Positions 34,698-52,958 of a stretch of DNA of 64,000 nucleotides are shown here, in pieces. The first letter of the stretch is position 1. Each line of letters starts with the position of its first letter. Location of the stretch: positions 62,001 to 126,000 of the forward strand of contig NZ_QMEM01000001.1 in the NCBI RefSeq assembly GCF_003390915.1. Direction: 5' to 3'. The position numbers and the translations under genes are program-made. The notes beneath the pieces were generated by a model that did no database searches, was not told where the DNA came from, and saw nothing but the letters and a program-made list of their open reading frames with translations. This DNA is from Lewinella sp. IMCC34183. Lineage in GTDB: Bacteria > Bacteroidota > Bacteroidia > Chitinophagales > Saprospiraceae.

Positions 34698-36452
34698 TCA
34701 CCGGTCTGGCATCGGCATCCGGAATATTGTACGGTTGGCGTCGAGGGTGGTGAAGAAGAACGTCCCGGTTTGGGTGTCTATCGATGCCCCCTGGACGATG
34801 ACGGACAGGGGCAGCAGCACCTGATACGTTTCACCGTCCAGCAATCCATACGCCCCGACGGCATACCGGCCGTCTCCGCTGAGCGCGAACAGGCCCGTGG
34901 GGTAGCTACCCAGTACCCGTTGCAGATTCTTGGCGTCCCGGCGGACGGCATCCGCCACCAGGAACCGGGCGTCGTCGGTCAGGTATGCCCGGACATACAT
35001 CGATGCGCTATGCCGTATACGCTGCTCCAGGGCCAGTCCCCCCTTACTGACGCCGTAGCGAAAGATCATGTCCTGCTCGACCGTGAAAAGTACATCCCCG
35101 GCGGGGGGGGTCACGAATTCGGGCACGGAGTAATTGGCCGCGTAAGATCCAAGGGTGTCGCCCGTGATCGCATCCGCCACCACGGTCTGCCCGCGCAGAC
35201 TACCGTACCCCGTGTACGCTAATAGTCCGTCGGACAAGCCGACGGCGCGGATGGGGAAGGGGGCATCGGTTTCGCCGGCCAAGCCCAACGCCGGGACGGT
35301 CCGCGCCACGGTCTGGTTTGTCAGGTCAACCAGCTGGATAGCACCCGCCCGGGGCAGCGGGAGGAACAGGGTACTACCATCGCCGGACTGCGCCAGTGAT
35401 TCCGGTACGCCAGGCAGGGTCAGGACCGCCACCAACGTTAGATCCTCGGTATTATAGACCAGCAGTTCGGGCGATTCGGCCGTGATAACGTAAAGCAGGG
35501 GGCGCTGGCGATCAACGAGCATGCCCATAACCTGAGATTCGAACTTCAACCGGGGTACGCCGGACGGTACCGTAATGCGGTTGCTGGTCAGCTCTACCTG
35601 ATTGTCCAGCTGCAACCGAACCGCATAGGTATAATCCACCCCGAAGCCCGGATCCCGGTGGAGAAACGTCGTATCGGTAGACGTAAAGGTGGAAGTGAGG
35701 AAGGAGGAAAATCCCTGGTTGTCGGCCTCGACGATTACCTCGTAGGCGTTGAAGGCCTCGCTCGTGGTTTGCGTCCACCGCAGCAGTACACCCTCAGGCG
35801 TGGGTGTGGCGGACAGCAGCGTGGGTGGCGCGGGCTCCTCAAGCACCCGTATGCTTAGGGCAACACTGGTCTCGTGTCCCGTCGCGGCCATCGCCGTGAT
35901 TGTGATCGTATGCAATCCCGAACTAAGCAGGGGAACGGTCACGTATATCCTACCGGTCTCCGGGACCTGTCCCTCCCCGATCAGGCCGTCACGGTCGGAA
36001 CGGATAGCATAGGTCAGGGCACCGTGCACCTCATTAGCGGCGTCGGCATTGACCAGCATGCTGTCACCAAGAATGTAGGTGGTGATGTACCGGGCGTCGG
36101 GTGAGTAAATCCATATCCGGGGAATGTTGGGATCCGAAATAAGTTCCGCGTCGTAGCGTACGACGGGGTGGTCCGTGATCCGCAGGGAGGTGGCGTGCGG
36201 GAGGAAATAGAACTGGCTTACCTCTATGTCGTAGGTGCCGGTGGCCAGGTCCAGGAAGCGTGCCCTGCCTAGTGAATCGGTCAGCTGCTCCAGGGCGCCG
36301 GGAGTGAGCCGTACCGTGGCTCCGGGAATGGGTCTGCCCACCTGGTCGTAGGCCGTAACTTCAAGGCTGCCGGTAAGGGGCAGCTCCTCCTTTTCACAGC
36401 CCGCGGCTAGCAGGAGGCACAGGAGGAAGCAGGCGGTGCGGAGCAGGTGCAT
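34698..36452 (-). CDS. Lipoprotein: carboxypeptidase-like domain plus Fn3-like and beta-propeller (paralogue A)
   Basis: 584 aa. Lipobox LLLAAGCEKEE. Residues ~28-100 are a carboxypeptidase regulatory-like domain (LEVTAYDQVGRPIPGATVRL). Residues ~105-210 are an Ig-like domain, ~215-300 an Fn3-like domain (PPTLLSATPTPEGVLLRWTQ), and ~310-584 a repeat-rich beta-propeller (LLYVITAESPELLVYNTEDL). Its ATG overlaps the stop of paralogue B by 1 nt (TGATG), so both are co-transcribed and coupled. A periplasmic or surface binding protein is likely. The ligand cannot be told. Confidence 0.82.
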   Translation of the reverse strand: MHLLRTACFLLCLLLAAGCEKEELPLTGSLEVTAYDQVGRPIPGATVRLTPGALEQLTDSLGRARFLDLATGTYDIEVSQFYFLPHATSLRITDHPVVRYDAELISDPNIPRIWIYSPDARYITTYILGDSMLVNADAANEVHGALTYAIRSDRDGLIGEGQVPETGRIYVTVPLLSSGLHTITITAMAATGHETSVALSIRVLEEPAPPTLLSATPTPEGVLLRWTQTTSEAFNAYEVIVEADNQGFSSFLTSTFTSTDTTFLHRDPGFGVDYTYAVRLQLDNQVELTSNRITVPSGVPRLKFESQVMGMLVDRQRPLLYVITAESPELLVYNTEDLTLVAVLTLPGVPESLAQSGDGSTLFLPLPRAGAIQLVDLTNQTVARTVPALGLAGETDAPFPIRAVGLSDGLLAYTGYGSLRGQTVVADAITGDTLGSYAANYSVPEFVTPPAGDVLFTVEQDMIFRYGVSKGGLALEQRIRHSASMYVRAYLTDDARFLVADAVRRDAKNLQRVLGSYPTGLFALSGDGRYAVGAYGLLDGETYQVLLPLSVIVQGASIDTQTGTFFFTTLDANRTIFRMPMPDR

Positions 36453-38215
36453 CAGGGAAAGGGTACGAGGGTGATGAGGGTAGAATACAGTTCGTGGTGG
36501 AAGGCGATGCCCCGCATCGGATCGTAGGCCAGCACCCGATTGGGTGCCCGCACCGGTCCCAATTCTACCGCTGGCTGGCTCCCGTAGTACCGGTCGGGGC
36601 CCATGACGCGGCTGCCGTCGGCGTTGGACAGTCGTATGTCGTTGTAGTAGTCGGTGCCGAAGGTGGCCACCACCTGCTGCAGATCATTCGCGCGAAGCAT
36701 GGCATTCCCCGAGAAGAAGTAGCGGCCGTCGGCGGTCAGTACGGCACGAAGGCTACCGTTGGAGGAAGCCGATTTATCGGCCAAAAACAAACTGCCCTCT
36801 CCGTCAGGATCGAAGCGGACGGCCCGCTGCCCGCCGCCGCCGAAGTTCGACATAAACAGTCGCGTGCCGGTTGGATCGGCTATCAGGTTATTTGATTCTG
36901 ATGCCCCTACGTCGAGGAGCGTGAGCGTATCCACTCCGGGCCGGTAAAGGTGTAGCCCACGCACGTTTGAATCGCCGATCAGCGCTACACGTCCTCCGGT
37001 GAGGGCTGCTACCCGTATCGGGCGCAGCGTCTGCGCGAAGCGTGCGGCAGGGAGGTAGATCACCCGGTCGCGTTTGAGGACTGTCAGGTCGAATATGGTA
37101 ATTGTATTGCCTCCGGAGGCGGCCACGTACAGGGTGTCTCCATTCGGTGACAAACTGAGGTCCGTCGGCTGGCTGCCTGCCGGCAATTGCAGGGTCACCC
37201 GCCTGGTGCCCACGTCCATGACCACCAGGCGGTCGTTTTCCTGATCTATACCGTACAGCAGGCCTCGCTTCGGGTCAGACAACAGCCGGTTGACCGTCGC
37301 CTCGAGATCTATGTGGTCTACCGTGTACGCTGCTGTGTACGGCTCACTGGAGATGGGTTCGGACCGGCCGGTGAACACGTTCACCTGGTAATCTACGGGT
37401 CGGTTGTAGGGTAGGGTTTCGTCCACGAAGACGGTATCGTTGACGTCGTTAAGGATGGCGATCTCGTATAGGCTATTGCTCCCCGCCTCACCCCGGTACA
37501 CCGTGTAGTGGTCGAAGTCGCCGCCGGCCCAGCGCGACCAGCTCACGGCCAGACCCTCGCCGCTGGGTACCGCATTCCGGATATATACGGTAGGGGCCGG
37601 CGGCAGTATCAGCACGTTGAAGGAGAGACGGCTGGTAAGGCCCTCGCTATCGGTGGCCGTAAGGGTAAATACGTGGGTGCCGACCGATAAGTCCTGCAGG
37701 TACACCGCGGCCAGGCCCGCGGAATCTACGCCCGACCCCAGGACGCCGTCCAGGCTACTGGTCAGCTCCCAGGGGATGGTTCCGGTGGCGTCGCGGTCGT
37801 CCGTCAGGCGGGCTTCGAAGGTGAACCCCTCCGTGTCCCGGAACCCATCGGTTATGTCGGGGCGGGGGAACACGGGGATTATTTCCGGACCGCGATTGTA
37901 CCGCCCGGGAAGCCTAATGATGGCCTGGGTCAGCGTGCCTTCCGCCACGGAGGCTAGCGCACTGTTGCTACCCAGCTCGTCGTGGCTGGCCTCGACGAGG
38001 TAATCGAGGGGGGGCAGGTCAGCAAACAGTACGGTTCCCGCACTGTCGGTGATGCCGCGGGCATCGCCCGGATCGAGCCGTACTGCCACGCCGGCCTGCG
38101 GACCATCGGCGTTTGAGACGAATACCTCAAGGGTTCCCCCTTCGTCTTCTTTCGTGCAGGCCAGTAGGGTGAAGCACAGGACGAAAGGGTATAAAAACCG
38201 GTAGGTTGGGTGCAT
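36452..38215 (-). CDS. Lipoprotein: carboxypeptidase-like domain plus Fn3-like and beta-propeller (paralogue B)
   Basis: 587 aa, first gene of the pair. Lipobox LCFTLLACTKEDE. The domain order equals paralogue A: EVFVSNADGPQAGVAVRLD, an Ig-like domain (GFTFEARLTDDRD), an Fn3-like domain (NAVPSGEGLAVSWSRW) and a YVTN-like propeller with LSLSPNGDTLYVAASGGN. The two are clearly related by tandem duplication but have diverged. A TAATTTCG box (38235-38242, minus) is 19 nt before the ATG. The pair may form a heteromeric surface complex; that is inference. Confidence 0.82.
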   Translation of the reverse strand: MHPTYRFLYPFVLCFTLLACTKEDEGGTLEVFVSNADGPQAGVAVRLDPGDARGITDSAGTVLFADLPPLDYLVEASHDELGSNSALASVAEGTLTQAIIRLPGRYNRGPEIIPVFPRPDITDGFRDTEGFTFEARLTDDRDATGTIPWELTSSLDGVLGSGVDSAGLAAVYLQDLSVGTHVFTLTATDSEGLTSRLSFNVLILPPAPTVYIRNAVPSGEGLAVSWSRWAGGDFDHYTVYRGEAGSNSLYEIAILNDVNDTVFVDETLPYNRPVDYQVNVFTGRSEPISSEPYTAAYTVDHIDLEATVNRLLSDPKRGLLYGIDQENDRLVVMDVGTRRVTLQLPAGSQPTDLSLSPNGDTLYVAASGGNTITIFDLTVLKRDRVIYLPAARFAQTLRPIRVAALTGGRVALIGDSNVRGLHLYRPGVDTLTLLDVGASESNNLIADPTGTRLFMSNFGGGGQRAVRFDPDGEGSLFLADKSASSNGSLRAVLTADGRYFFSGNAMLRANDLQQVVATFGTDYYNDIRLSNADGSRVMGPDRYYGSQPAVELGPVRAPNRVLAYDPMRGIAFHHELYSTLITLVPFP

Positions 38216-41465: not shown

Positions 41466-44435
41466 ATGTACACTATTTCCCGGTTCGTACCTGGTTTCCG
41501 ACTGATCGTTCTGTTGCTCATTAGCACCCTGGCCGGCGGTCCGTCCCTGGTCGCTCAGTCGACTCCTCCCGGGGAGATCGCCGAGCTCGTCAACACCTAC
41601 CGTACCGACCGGCGCGGCCCCTACCGCGGCATCTTCTGGTTTTGCTCCGACGGCAGCCAGCGCGCGGCGCGTGACCCCTGTCCGGACGACGACCGCGCCC
41701 ACCAGCACGCCGACTATACTCCGCGTATCAAGCAGCTCATGCGGCAGGACCACCTGTTCTTCGGACAGGTACTCGCCGATACCGAGTACGGGGATTTCTG
41801 GGATGCGGCCAACGATCACAGCCGACTCAAACAGTACCAGCTCAATAATTACCTCGTGGCCGTCGACGACGGCTGGATCCTCGAGCAGGCCCGCTTCTAC
41901 CGGGGCGCCTTCCAGGTAGAGGACGAGGAAGAGTGGGGCCGCAGTTTTTTCCGGTGGCTGCTTGCTAAGGACGACGTGCTGCGGGAAAACTTTTACCTCA
42001 TCGTGCAGGCCGCCCGCGACATTCCGCACCGCGGCGATACCGACCTCAACCAGCGTATTCGCGCGGTCAGTAAGGAGATCGCCGATGAGTACCCGGCCTT
42101 CATGGACCTGCGGATCAAGATCCACGGACGTCCGGAGGGCGCGGACGCAGGTGCGGTGGAACGCTTCATGGAAGAACACGCCACGGAATTGCGCGAACGC
42201 GACCTCTACGCTTCCGCCGAATCTCTGGTCAACGACATCAACGTGGCGTACGGAGGCAGCGACCTGAGCAACGTGCGCGATCTGCTCGCCGATCTCCCCG
42301 AGACCGACCCCCTCCGGCCCGGCCTGATCGGGTTCGTCGAGCAGCAGGCCCGCCTGGAGGACGGCTCCAACGATGTTTCGCGCCTGACCGCGGCGGCCGA
42401 CCTGAGCGTAGCCATTCGCCAGAGTTTGGTCAACGACGAGCGCCGTCCCCTCGATCGCCTGCGCCTGATCGACGTACTTAATGAAGTAAGCGACCTCATC
42501 TTCCGCACCGCCGGCAGTTGGGAACCGGTCACGGCCCGGGACCAGATGGAGAAGATCTGCTACCTCGGGGAGGCCGCGGCGGGCACGGGCTTCATCGAAC
42601 TCTGGGAGTACGAAGCCGCCATCGGTAACCTCGCCGATCCCGGGTATCAGTACATCTGGCCCCGGATGCTCGACGATTACCTCGACAACGCCCGTCGCTT
42701 CGTGGAGTGGGGCACCGCTACCAACCGGGTCGTCTACGGCGATGTGGCAGAGCGGTACGCGAGCTTCGAACCGCAGGCCCTCGGCTTTCTCGACGACCAG
42801 ATCCGGGGTTCCGTTCTGCTGCCCTTCGGGCAGGCCGTCGGCGCCCTCGGCGACTGGCTGGCTCGCAACAGCGACAGCGGCAACCACCTTATGGACATCG
42901 CCTCCCAGGCCCAGGCCCGCGGCCTCAATCCCGGCTACGCCCGGGGCATCCTTCACCTGATCGAGGGCGCGCCCGACGGCGTAGAGGTCAACAACCACGA
43001 CATCTTCGCCTTCAGCCGTCCGCCATCCGACCTGAAACCCGTCGGCGGTATCCTTACCGTGAGCGAGGGGAATATGGTCAGCCACGTACAGTTGCTGGCC
43101 CGCAATCTGGGTATTCCCAACGCCGTGCTTAGCGACCAGCAATTCAAGCAGCTCAAGCCGTACGATGGTGAGGAGGTCTTTTACGCGGTGAGCAGCGGCG
43201 GATCGGTACTGATGAAGCCGGTCGGAGACATGACCGAAACGGAGCGTGACCTTTTCGCCGTGCGCGAACGCAGCCAGGAAAAGATCGCCGTGCCCGTCGA
43301 CCGCATCGATCTCTCGACCCGCGACGTACTGGACCTGCGAAACGTCGACGCCGAAGACAGCGGCGTACGGTCCGGCCCCAAGGCCGCCAACCTCGGCCAG
43401 CTCAAGGCGCTCTTCCCCGATAAGGTCGTCAACGGTCTGGTGATCCCATTCGGCATTTTCCGTGAGCACCTGGATCAGCAGATGCCCGGCCAGCCCGACG
43501 GTACCAGCTACTGGACCTTCCTCAACGCACGCTTCGCCGAAGCGGCCCGTATGGAAAAGGATGGCCGCAGTGCAGCGGATATCGAGGCCTATACGCTTGA
43601 ACAGCTGGCCACGCTGCGCACGGCCATCGATGAGATCCGCATCGAGGGCAAACTGATCGCCCAACTACAGGACGGCTTCCGCGACGTACTTGGTGGCGAA
43701 TTCGGAGAAGTACCGGTATTCCTACGGTCGGACACTAACATGGAGGATCTGGAATCCTTCACCGGGGCCGGCCTCAACAAGACCGTCTTCAATGTCGTGG
43801 GCCGCACCTCCATTCTGGACGGCATCAAGGAAGTCTGGGCCAGCCCGTACACGGAACGAAGCTACCGCTGGCGTCAGCGCTACCTCCTGAACCCCGAGAA
43901 CGTATTCCCTAGCATCCTCATCATCCCGAGCGTGGACGTGGAATATTCCGGCGTGATGATCACCAAGGGGGTTACGTCCGGACTGGACGACGATATTACC
44001 GTGGCCTTCAGCCGCGGTGCTGGGGGTGCGGTCGATGGACAAGCCGCGGAATCCTACCTGCTGGGAGCCGATGGCCGCTTCACCCTGCAGGCGCCCGCCC
44101 GCGAGCGCATGTACCGTCGCCTGCCGGTAACGGGGGGCTCGGTGATGGTTGCCGCCCCCTTCGATCGTCCGATCCTGAGTCAGCAAAACCTGTCGGATCT
44201 CTACGCTTTAGGGCAGGAAGTAGAGCGTATCATGCCGCAGGCACCGGGCGTGAATACCGACGGGCCCTTTGATGTTGAGTTGGGATTTCAGGACAACAAG
44301 ATCTGGCTGTTCCAGATCCGGCCCTTCGTGGAGAACGACAACGCTCAGAAGTCCGAATACCTGCAGAGCATCTCGCCCCCCGAGCGGGAAGGCGTTTACA
44401 TCGACCTGGCGAGCAGCATGCAGGAGGGACTGTAG
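41466..44435 (+). CDS. Exported PEP-utiliser/pyruvate-phosphate-dikinase-like protein with permuted domains
   Basis: 989 aa from the ATG at 41466. The N-terminus (LIVLLLISTLAGGPSLVAQS) is a signal peptide. Residues ~30-500 are an all-helical-looking region I do not recognise. Residues ~525-560 carry a phospho-histidine swivel motif (SEGNMVSHVQLLARNLGIP, His540). Residues ~650-975 are an ATP-grasp PEP/pyruvate-binding domain: GPKAANLGQLKALFP, VFLRSDTNMEDLESFTGAG (Arg754) and WLFQIRPF at the end. In PPDK and PEP synthase the ATP domain comes first; here the His domain precedes it, as in plant glucan water dikinase. The substrate is unknown. A periplasmic ATP-dependent dikinase would be surprising. 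Confidence 0.85.
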   Translation: MYTISRFVPGFRLIVLLLISTLAGGPSLVAQSTPPGEIAELVNTYRTDRRGPYRGIFWFCSDGSQRAARDPCPDDDRAHQHADYTPRIKQLMRQDHLFFGQVLADTEYGDFWDAANDHSRLKQYQLNNYLVAVDDGWILEQARFYRGAFQVEDEEEWGRSFFRWLLAKDDVLRENFYLIVQAARDIPHRGDTDLNQRIRAVSKEIADEYPAFMDLRIKIHGRPEGADAGAVERFMEEHATELRERDLYASAESLVNDINVAYGGSDLSNVRDLLADLPETDPLRPGLIGFVEQQARLEDGSNDVSRLTAAADLSVAIRQSLVNDERRPLDRLRLIDVLNEVSDLIFRTAGSWEPVTARDQMEKICYLGEAAAGTGFIELWEYEAAIGNLADPGYQYIWPRMLDDYLDNARRFVEWGTATNRVVYGDVAERYASFEPQALGFLDDQIRGSVLLPFGQAVGALGDWLARNSDSGNHLMDIASQAQARGLNPGYARGILHLIEGAPDGVEVNNHDIFAFSRPPSDLKPVGGILTVSEGNMVSHVQLLARNLGIPNAVLSDQQFKQLKPYDGEEVFYAVSSGGSVLMKPVGDMTETERDLFAVRERSQEKIAVPVDRIDLSTRDVLDLRNVDAEDSGVRSGPKAANLGQLKALFPDKVVNGLVIPFGIFREHLDQQMPGQPDGTSYWTFLNARFAEAARMEKDGRSAADIEAYTLEQLATLRTAIDEIRIEGKLIAQLQDGFRDVLGGEFGEVPVFLRSDTNMEDLESFTGAGLNKTVFNVVGRTSILDGIKEVWASPYTERSYRWRQRYLLNPENVFPSILIIPSVDVEYSGVMITKGVTSGLDDDITVAFSRGAGGAVDGQAAESYLLGADGRFTLQAPARERMYRRLPVTGGSVMVAAPFDRPILSQQNLSDLYALGQEVERIMPQAPGVNTDGPFDVELGFQDNKIWLFQIRPFVENDNAQKSEYLQSISPPEREGVYIDLASSMQEGL

Positions 44436-51320: not shown

Positions 51321-52958
51321 TCAGCGGGCGCGGGTCACGGACACCGGCATGTTGCGGTCGTAATTCCCGGTCAGGGTAGGGGTTTGCAGGTTGCCGGTGT
51401 ACCCCCGCACTTCACGGTGTACGTAGGTAAACAGTTCTTCTATGGACACCATGCCGTCCTTATTCGCGTCGGCTTCCCCCTTCATGCCCCGGATCAGGTA
51501 GTGGCTGAACACCCCGGACCGGAGTCCGCCGTCTTCCATGCTGATCTCTTCCCCGCGGCTCGACATCATCAGCGCGGTAGAGGCCTGGGCATTCGTCAAT
51601 GCGGAATAGTAGTCGGTAAGCATGCCGGTGTTCCCGCCCACGCCTCGGGCCGCCAGGCTGCCGCTGTGACAGGCATCGGCGATCACCACCTTGTGCCGCG
51701 AGCGGCTCTCCGCCAGGGCGGCGTGGACGTCGGCATGGGCCAGGGCGTTGCGCTCGCCGTCGTAGTCGACCGGCAGGAAGGAGCCGGGCAGGCCGTGGCC
51801 GCTGAAGTAGAACAGGATAACGTCGTTCTCGTCGGCCTTGCGGTAGGTATCGTGCAGGGCGGCAAGGATATTCTCGTGGGTGGCGTCTTCGTCGATCAGG
51901 ACCTTCACCTGCTCGTCGGTGAGGGCTCCGCCCTCGATGCTCTTCAGGAAGGCGTAGAACTGGTACGCGTCGTCGTCCGTGTACCGCAGCGTTTTCATGT
52001 GCTGGTAGTAGGCACAGCCGACAACCACGGCCCACACCTTCACTTCCGGGTCGTACTCGGCCGTGGCCGCGACCGGTGCGTTGCCCTGGGCGGTGTACAT
52101 CGGGCGGGCCAGCTGTCCGTCCTGCCAGAGGCCGCCCTCGATCAGTCCGCTGGGGTATTGCATGACGCCGAGACCGTTCGGACGGTGGTTGCTGAAGGCG
52201 CCGTGGTAGCTGTTTCCGTTCGGGAACATGACCGTGCCCCGCCCGTCAGGGCTGCCGTCACGGGTCGTGCCGAAAAAGGTGGTACCATCGCTGTAGGTGT
52301 AGCGTGAGTCGCCGTCGGGGCATCCTTCGTTGCAGTTGACGAGGTCGGCGGTATTTCCGACAAAGCCGAGGGTCGCCCAGTCGACTCGTGGCTCGCCGGC
52401 CAGCCATTCGCCCTGGTAGGCGGTGCCGTCGGCGTAGGTCATCCGGCCGCGGCCGTTGGGCCGGTTGGCGGACCAGAATCCGACGTAGCGGTCGCCGTTG
52501 GCGTAGTCCATGGTGCCGAAGCCGTCGAGGGCGTTTTCCCGGAGGGTACCCACGTAGTAGTTTTCGTTGGCGAAGGTATAGGCGACTTCGCCATCGAGCA
52601 CGTCGTCCACCCAGGTACCGACGATCTCGCCGCCGTCGGTGTAGATCACTTTTCCCCGCCCGTGACGACGCCCCTCACGCCACATGCCCTCGTAGCGGTT
52701 GCCGCTGGCGTCGATGAGCTTCCCCGGACCACTCTGGAGCTGGGCCCGGAAACTGCCGGAATAGACCGAGCCATCGGGGTAGGTCAGGGTGCCGGTGCCA
52801 TTGAACTGTCCCTCCCGGAACGTTCCGGTGTAGAGCGCGCCGTCCGCAAATCGCAGGACGCCCTCGCCGGTGTAACAATTGCCTCGTTGACAGCGTCCCT
52901 GGGCGCTGAGTGCCGTGGTGCAAATAAGCAGCAACGGCAGGAAAAGGAATTTCAACAT
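51321..52958 (-). CDS. Secreted MORN-repeat/caspase-like (C14) protein with EF-hand loop
   Basis: 545 aa. Signal peptide (residues 1-19). Residues ~25-285 hold about ten MORN repeats (GEGVLRFADGALYTGTF, GTGTLTYPDGSVYSGSF, GRGRMTYADGTAYQGEW). Residues ~305-490 are a caspase/metacaspase domain with His388 in FYFSGHGLPGSFLPVDYDG and Cys430 in VVIADACHSGS. Near the C-terminus is a canonical EF-hand loop DANKDGMVSIEE (497-508). Metacaspases cut after Arg or Lys and need Ca2+. Caspase plus EF-hand-like loop is known in bacterial homologues; the MORN front part and export suggest a surface or periplasmic Ca2+-dependent protease. Substrate unknown. Confidence 0.9.
   Translation of the reverse strand: MLKFLFLPLLLICTTALSAQGRCQRGNCYTGEGVLRFADGALYTGTFREGQFNGTGTLTYPDGSVYSGSFRAQLQSGPGKLIDASGNRYEGMWREGRRHGRGKVIYTDGGEIVGTWVDDVLDGEVAYTFANENYYVGTLRENALDGFGTMDYANGDRYVGFWSANRPNGRGRMTYADGTAYQGEWLAGEPRVDWATLGFVGNTADLVNCNEGCPDGDSRYTYSDGTTFFGTTRDGSPDGRGTVMFPNGNSYHGAFSNHRPNGLGVMQYPSGLIEGGLWQDGQLARPMYTAQGNAPVAATAEYDPEVKVWAVVVGCAYYQHMKTLRYTDDDAYQFYAFLKSIEGGALTDEQVKVLIDEDATHENILAALHDTYRKADENDVILFYFSGHGLPGSFLPVDYDGERNALAHADVHAALAESRSRHKVVIADACHSGSLAARGVGGNTGMLTDYYSALTNAQASTALMMSSRGEEISMEDGGLRSGVFSHYLIRGMKGEADANKDGMVSIEELFTYVHREVRGYTGNLQTPTLTGNYDRNMPVSVTRAR

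Follow-up and report, generated by a model that had tools for sequence, protein, structure and literature searches.

The window analyzed here is a 64,000-nucleotide stretch of Lewinella sp. IMCC34183 (contig NZ_QMEM01000001.1, positions 62,001 to 126,000 of the forward strand). An open reading frame (ORF) in it encodes an exported dikinase-like protein, hereafter the dikinase, which is, to judge from its sequence, real and unusual: a signal peptide and a large N-terminal domain precede a phosphohistidine swivel domain, and an ATP-grasp (PPDK_N) domain comes last. Its features, in window coordinates, are as follows.

41466..44435, + strand: exported dikinase-like protein, 989 amino acids plus stop (ORF and orthologs)
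41466..41555, + strand: signal peptide, residues ~1-30, probably cut before Gln31 (sequence and ortholog N-termini)
41565..42899, + strand: residues 34-478, a mostly helical N-terminal domain that probably binds the acceptor (alignment and model)
41643..41681, + strand: invariant cysteines Cys60 and Cys72, which may form a disulfide (64/64 sequences)
42915..43265, + strand: phosphohistidine swivel domain, residues 484-600 (Pfam below cut-off, weak 8a8e alignment, model)
43083..43085, + strand: His540, predicted phosphohistidine (64/64 sequences)
43362..44336, + strand: ATP-grasp (PPDK_N) domain, residues 633-957 (Pfam; Foldseek 5hv6_B)
43380..43382, + strand: Lys639, taken as the counterpart of Lys22 in PPDK and rifampin phosphotransferase (RPH) by motif, not by tool alignment (64/64)
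43725..43727, + strand: Arg754, aligned with position 117 of RPH-Lm, the alignment counted by hand (64/64)
44277..44321, + strand: Glu938, Gln950 and Arg952 at the end of the ATP-grasp domain, DVELGF...WLFQIRPF (64/64 sequences)

The ATG at 41466 was preferred as the start over a longer ORF opening with TTG on the basis of ortholog support. The ORF, His540, Arg754 and the WLFQIRPF motif were found in the sequence as the original prediction had described them, and the order it had claimed (N-terminal region, swivel, ATP-grasp) is upheld by Pfam, by conservation and by the structural model. PPDK_N was matched at residues 637-964 (E 3.6e-24; 86.1 bits against a Pfam cut-off of 27). The ATP-grasp domain ends about 32 residues before the C-terminus, which excludes the canonical order of ATP-grasp, His and TIM barrel, and Pfam gave no match in the dikinase to the phosphoenolpyruvate (PEP)/pyruvate TIM barrel, so that both the missing barrel and the order opposite to that of PPDK and PEP synthase stand as first described. 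Nor was CBM45 or CBM20 matched by Pfam in the dikinase up to E 1. The swivel was assigned, besides a Pfam match below cut-off, from the stretch SEGN-x-VSHVQLLARN, whose key positions are invariant in 64/64 sequences, from PEP synthase 8a8e, to which a second domain aligns weakly (domain E 0.9), and from the predicted fold, in which His540 sits at the start of a helix. NCBIfam returned 14 matches, mostly PEP synthases and all far below cut-off (best 87.3 bits against 883), and the dikinase was the only PPDK_N match found in the 5.1 Mb genome of the window.

Export of the dikinase through a signal peptide, also part of the original prediction, is well supported by the N-terminal sequences of its family, which fit the Sec route with signal peptidase I and no lipobox. 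A scan of a genome collection confirmed 368 relatives among 440 pattern hits, and locus counts below refer to the nearest orthologs, the best 80 of these 368, all titled Bacteroidota (for example Neolewinella, Maribacter, Arenibacter, Formosa and Leeuwenhoekiella). Peak 12-residue N-terminal hydropathy was at least 1.85 in the 77 of 80 orthologs with a script-chosen start, against 1.47 or less in eight PEP synthase controls; the remaining three lay outside the length limit of the script and have similar N-termini by eye. A loose pattern with Gln as its last residue was found ahead of the mature part in 80/81 sequences (window included), as compared with 13/81 in residues 101-130 of the same ORFs. 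A lipobox-like string was seen in 1/81, and a crude count placed no transmembrane-like segment past the mature start in 74/81 sequences and one in 7/81.

Of the 80 loci, 77 had a chosen start; 63 of these entered alignment A6, and 61 of the 63 entered A8. The residues invariant in 64/64 aligned sequences include C60, C72, H220, H540, K639, R754, E938, Q950 and R952. The Lys/Arg/Glu/Gln/Arg site of the ATP-grasp domain and the swivel His are thus all present, as in the phosphohistidine dikinase superfamily. In RPH-Lm, variants of Arg117 and of Lys22 each lost rifampin resistance, as passages of PMC4844700 report. The full-length model (pLDDT 87.4, pTM 0.84) had the RPH of Listeria as its best Foldseek match (5hv1, E 2.4e-14), followed by PEP synthase 2ols (E 1.4e-11) and, weakly, PPDK 1kbl (1e-4); for the isolated ATP domain the match was 5hv6_B, with a TM score of 0.86 normalised by target. 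Among viral models three matches reached E<=0.001: one to a protein of Bacillus phage G, one to an unnamed protein and one to a PPDK-like protein of Hyperionvirus. The N-terminal domain alone (residues 34-478, about 445 residues, mostly helical) was modelled with a pLDDT of 89.3 and had no PDB match at E<=0.001, the best being 9mg8_B at 0.10 (TM 0.16-0.18). Across the 64 sequences 53 of its 445 columns are invariant, 31 of the 53 being polar, Trp, Tyr or Cys; the polar ones include R146, E152, D153, E154, R216, K218, H220 and E435. This degree of invariance suggests that the N-terminal domain holds a functional site.

Among 198 Bacteroidota genomes, 13 had a dikinase match at E<=1e-10, eight of them near full length, with the window's genome among the eight. 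On inspection by eye, four of the other five (L010, L011, L014 and L013) start with what looks like a signal peptide and continue with the swivel motif and then ATP-grasp; the fifth, L012, looks like an ATP-grasp of the PEP-synthase type. L010, L011 and L014 (at L135, L138 and L136) make up an exported-looking dikinase subfamily of about 630 residues. At L135 and L138, which belong to one genus, the dikinase adjoins an MnmA-like gene, with CTP-synthase-like and YidC-like genes nearby (names by eye). The relative L013 (L137:7134-9626) carries a type IX C-terminal sorting domain (Por_Secre_tail, E 6.6e-12) and is therefore probably outside the cell. In a tree of 42 ATP-grasp rows, built without L118, L120, L121, L132 (PPDK), L129 and L012, 13 chosen family members together with L010, L011, L014 and L013 (17/42) split from 25 other PPDK_N domains with support 100/99. 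A second tree of 45 rows, to which four PPDKs were added and from which L013, the longest branch, was left out, gave the same split (16 versus 29 rows, 100/98). Branches are long in both trees, which calls for caution, and in both the dikinase clade is separate from the 13 PEP-synthase-like rows. The ATP-grasp domain thus joins subfamilies of the same order and not ordinary PEP synthases. PPDK_N proteins encoded next to one another in clusters were seen at G019:C28, G035:C7, G047:C112, G074:C4, G082:C66 and G116:C14, some of about 1065 residues with a mid-protein ATP-grasp and others of about 576-603 residues; at six of the ~1065-residue loci (L119, L122-L125 and L129) a simple pattern found no swivel His.

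Three gene clusters recur downstream of the dikinase: c1, an exported beta-lactamase-fold gene, at 70 of the 80 loci; c2, which joins an NTT (ATP/ADP carrier-like) part to HEAT repeats, at 55; and c3, a second exported beta-lactamase-fold gene, at 51. All three occur together at 50/80 loci, and none of them at 10/80 (L015-L023 and L028, titled Lewinella-type or Saprospiraceae). c1 lies on the same strand as the dikinase in 70/70 cases, within 20 bases of it in 52 and within 120 in 64, and c2 and c3 lie on the opposite strand without exception (55/55 and 51/51). Beta-lactamase2 scored above cut-off for c1 and c3 at both loci tested (L024 and L035). In c1 the motifs PGSVGK and KSGS were each found in 70/70 copies, an SNN motif in 63/70 and a hydrophobic N-terminus in 69/70; in c3, SLPK was found in 51/51, KSGS in 49/51, SKSNN in 29/51 and a hydrophobic N-terminus in 51/51. 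Against PDB sequences c1 had no match up to E 1, and c3 had two (E 0.007-0.008). Neighbouring ORFs were longest-ORF calls, and several loci end at contig ends; within these bounds only c1, c2 and c3 were present in more than 13/81 loci. A shared polysaccharide-utilisation locus was accordingly rejected as the common context, and clusters above this frequency revealed no shared carbohydrate-gene context; rarer clusters had no tool annotation, and lineage-specific carbohydrate genes are possible among them.

All three partners are also present in the window's genome but scattered: c1 at C34:586691-587911, c2 at C3:56636-59467 and c3 at C34:905524-906327, with identities to four test queries each of 52-68%, 34-50% and 53-59%, respectively. 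The module is therefore kept there in dispersed form. The c3 match counts one in-frame stop, probably the gene's own end because it lies just four residues short of where the match ends. At L101:8637-11495 the NTT-HEAT protein of this genome lies, by eye, between MsrA-like and arginyl-tRNA-synthetase-like genes, away from the dikinase.

Co-occurrence was then followed across genomes. In the phylum draw (the 198 genomes), c1 and c3 (E<=1e-20) were found in exactly the eight genomes with a full-length dikinase and in 0/190 others, and c2 at E<=1e-200 was found in seven of the eight and in no others. Of the 345 genomes of a class draw, six had the dikinase (E<=1e-60); c1 (E<=1e-40) was found in five of these six and 0/339 others, and c2 at E<=1e-200 in five of the six and nowhere else. 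For c1, P was 2e-14 in the phylum draw and 1.5e-10 in the class draw, values that ignore shared ancestry. The draws overlap, with at least G000, G064 and G103 in both; class-draw searches covered the dikinase, c1 and c2, and the genome searches score only part of the first-look candidates, so that misses may be false negatives.

The NTT part of c2 matches the solved ADP,ATP carriers 9j3j (chloroplastic, E 2.1e-14) and 9j3n (2.1e-11). In the 54 copies of more than 850 residues the N-terminal half has 10-12 transmembrane-like segments, and in 51/54 the HEAT half has none. HEAT repeats were found in c2 of both L024 and L035. TLC was above cut-off in c2 of L024 (Neolewinella lacunae), and in two Neolewinella-type genomes in all; in c2 of L035 (Maribacter polysiphoniae) no TLC match was obtained at E<=0.1. 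In the alignment to the solved carriers c2 retains a Lys near IDVV and an acidic Asp, and another acidic site is lost. It is plausible that c2 supplies ATP to the dikinase, though its key residues are only partly kept.

The conserved module is the strongest new result, and it suggests that a phosphorylation step driven by ATP takes place in the envelope. On balance, we lean toward a periplasmic phosphohistidine dikinase that acts on an envelope acceptor and receives its ATP either from outside or by way of the NTT-HEAT carrier with which it co-occurs. To judge from its domain order and catalytic site, a dikinase is likely; the reaction is proposed by analogy with the chemistry of PEP synthase, PPDK and RPH. 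ATP would bind the C-terminal ATP-grasp domain, and its beta-phosphate would move to His540 with release of AMP and phosphate. The swivel would then carry the phosphate to the N-terminal helical domain, where a cell-envelope acceptor would be bound. This acceptor may be a hydroxyl of peptidoglycan or of a surface polymer, since both fixed partners have the beta-lactamase fold and motifs of serine hydrolases. The export signal, the domain order, the intact catalytic residues, the module and its co-occurrence are seen in sequences and their comparison; where the acceptor site lies, its chemistry and what the carrier does are inferred.

Several points weigh against this reading. ATP is generally scarce in the periplasm, the activity of the dikinase is a prediction from sequence, and the Pfam match of the swivel to PEP-utilizers (residues 524-554; E 0.012) reaches 15.7 bits against a cut-off of 23.1. 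The acidic residue not kept in c2 is one that we take to be important in plant NTT1. At relaxed thresholds c2 is also found apart from the dikinase: at E<=1e-20 it was present in 21/198 genomes of the phylum draw, all eight plus 13 without a full-length dikinase (three near 1e-160), and at E<=1e-60 in 11 genomes of the class draw, all six plus five without a dikinase (7e-64 to 4e-79). In G183 the dikinase, c1 and c3 stand side by side, and the NTT match elsewhere is weak and short (2.2e-39, a 441-residue frame); G462 has a weaker NTT of 1105 residues and no c1 match, its dikinase match ending 347 bases from a contig end. Genomes of the exported-looking L010/L011/L014 and L013 subfamilies gave no match to c1, c2 or c3 at E<=1e-20, and the 16-17 kb stretches around these four genes (L135-L138) gave no tblastn match to them at E<=1e-3, so exported dikinases need not have this carrier. 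The dikinase, c1 and c3 are thus the firm core, with the carrier a common and not a universal companion.

A fuller version, which we put forward only tentatively, is a periplasmic phosphorylation system in which the NTT-HEAT protein exports ATP, a polymer of the envelope or a fragment is phosphorylated by the dikinase with its new acceptor domain, and the two beta-lactamase-fold hydrolases make or trim the acceptor. It is doubtful, in our estimate, that the protein is instead an exported enzyme fed by ATP from the surroundings, or that it senses ATP and passes phosphate to no second substrate, with NTT-HEAT otherwise employed, for example in nucleotide scavenging. The missing NTT matches in genomes of the related subfamilies, the sorting tail of L013, and passages of PMC5381601, in which NTT-HEAT fusions are known and their functions are given as unknown, all agree with such a role; the invariance of the catalytic residues and of many polar residues of the N-terminal domain argues against it, as does the close tracking of the dikinase by NTT-HEAT relatives at E<=1e-200 in both draws.

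Membership in the plant glucan water dikinase (GWD) line, with phosphorylation of alpha-glucans taken into the periplasm, is unlikely. Many ortholog hosts are of genera that use marine polysaccharides, and the short motif around Arg754, which ends in GAGLYDS in the two related subfamilies, resembles that of GWD, a lead and not a test. The glucan or lipid-linked polymer substrate of the original prediction is nonetheless unsupported: CBM45 and CBM20 are not matched, the mostly helical N-terminal domain has no PDB match, and carbohydrate genes are not among the neighbours that are conserved widely. The swivel/ATP-grasp order is shared with GWD (PMC11986951, PMC6805951, in the parts that describe it), and membership from domain order alone was rejected.

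We regard it as very unlikely that the protein works like RPH, disabling a small molecule beyond the cytoplasm and forming a defence set with its beta-lactamase-fold partners: these partners and the best structural match, the RPH of Listeria, speak for it, but the domain order differs (passages of PMC4844700), the substrate-side domain has no PDB match, and the same gene order at 50/80 loci across many genera seems unlike a typical mobile resistance gene. A rearranged cytoplasmic PEP synthase with a misread N-terminus, which the Pfam and NCBIfam naming by PPDK_N, the prevalence of PEP synthases among the 14 matches and the lone PPDK_N match of the window's genome would favor, is highly improbable and was rejected as already largely refuted by the family-wide signal peptide, the lack of the PEP/pyruvate TIM barrel, the separate branch from the 13 PEP-synthase-like rows and partners with signal-peptide-like N-termini.

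Elsewhere in the window, a signal-peptide-like protein at 51321-52958 has, by eye, MORN-like repeats and then a caspase-like (GHG...DACHSG) domain. At 34698-38215 two tandem lipoprotein-like ORFs of about 585 residues begin with a CarboxypepD_reg-like region (34.2 bits, above cut-off, and 23.7 bits, below it), and the second has weak beta-propeller matches below cut-off.

One does not expect to find ATP-dependent enzymes beyond the cytoplasm. With a conserved exported dikinase and a carrier-like companion, a supplied periplasmic ATP pool becomes directly testable in culturable flavobacteria (Maribacter, Formosa). The module also places NTT-HEAT fusions in a functional context and, if the fuller version above is true, the NTT-HEAT proteins found in free-living bacteria would gain a role. 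Searches of the openly licensed PMC literature brought up no title or abstract that describes the dikinase or the module, which is no proof of their being unpublished; PMC11036162 led nowhere, since the ATP-grasp ligase it describes is unrelated.

Among known systems, c2 resembles the NTT-HEAT carrier-like proteins of PMC5381601 in combining an NTT domain with HEAT repeats, and differs in being tied here to an exported ATP-using enzyme, a context absent from the passages of that paper. With PEP synthase and PPDK the dikinase shares ATP-grasp and swivel chemistry, and it departs from them in its opposite order, its lack of the PEP/pyruvate TIM barrel and its separate branch in the trees. RPH-Lm has in common with it the ATP-grasp fold, Arg117 by alignment, Lys22 by motif, the swivel His and, if the acceptor is as proposed, transfer to an acceptor other than PEP; its order is ATP-grasp, substrate domain and swivel (PMC4844700), whereas here an acceptor-like domain, swivel and ATP-grasp follow an export signal. 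The comparison of domain order with GWD and PWD made in the original prediction is fair, because the relevant passages of PMC11986951 and PMC6805951 place a C-terminal PPDK_N/dikinase domain in both, together with a large N-terminal region and a catalytic histidine. No GWD was among the PDB matches of the dikinase, and GWD has no high-resolution structure so far, according to passages of PMC12892837; the family offers a bacterial route to the GWD-type domain order. As compared by published description only, the dikinase instead has an export signal, no detected CBM45 or CBM20, another kind of N-terminal domain and a bacterial gene module; we did not file it as a GWD, since Pfam turned up no starch-binding module and a glucan substrate is unsupported.

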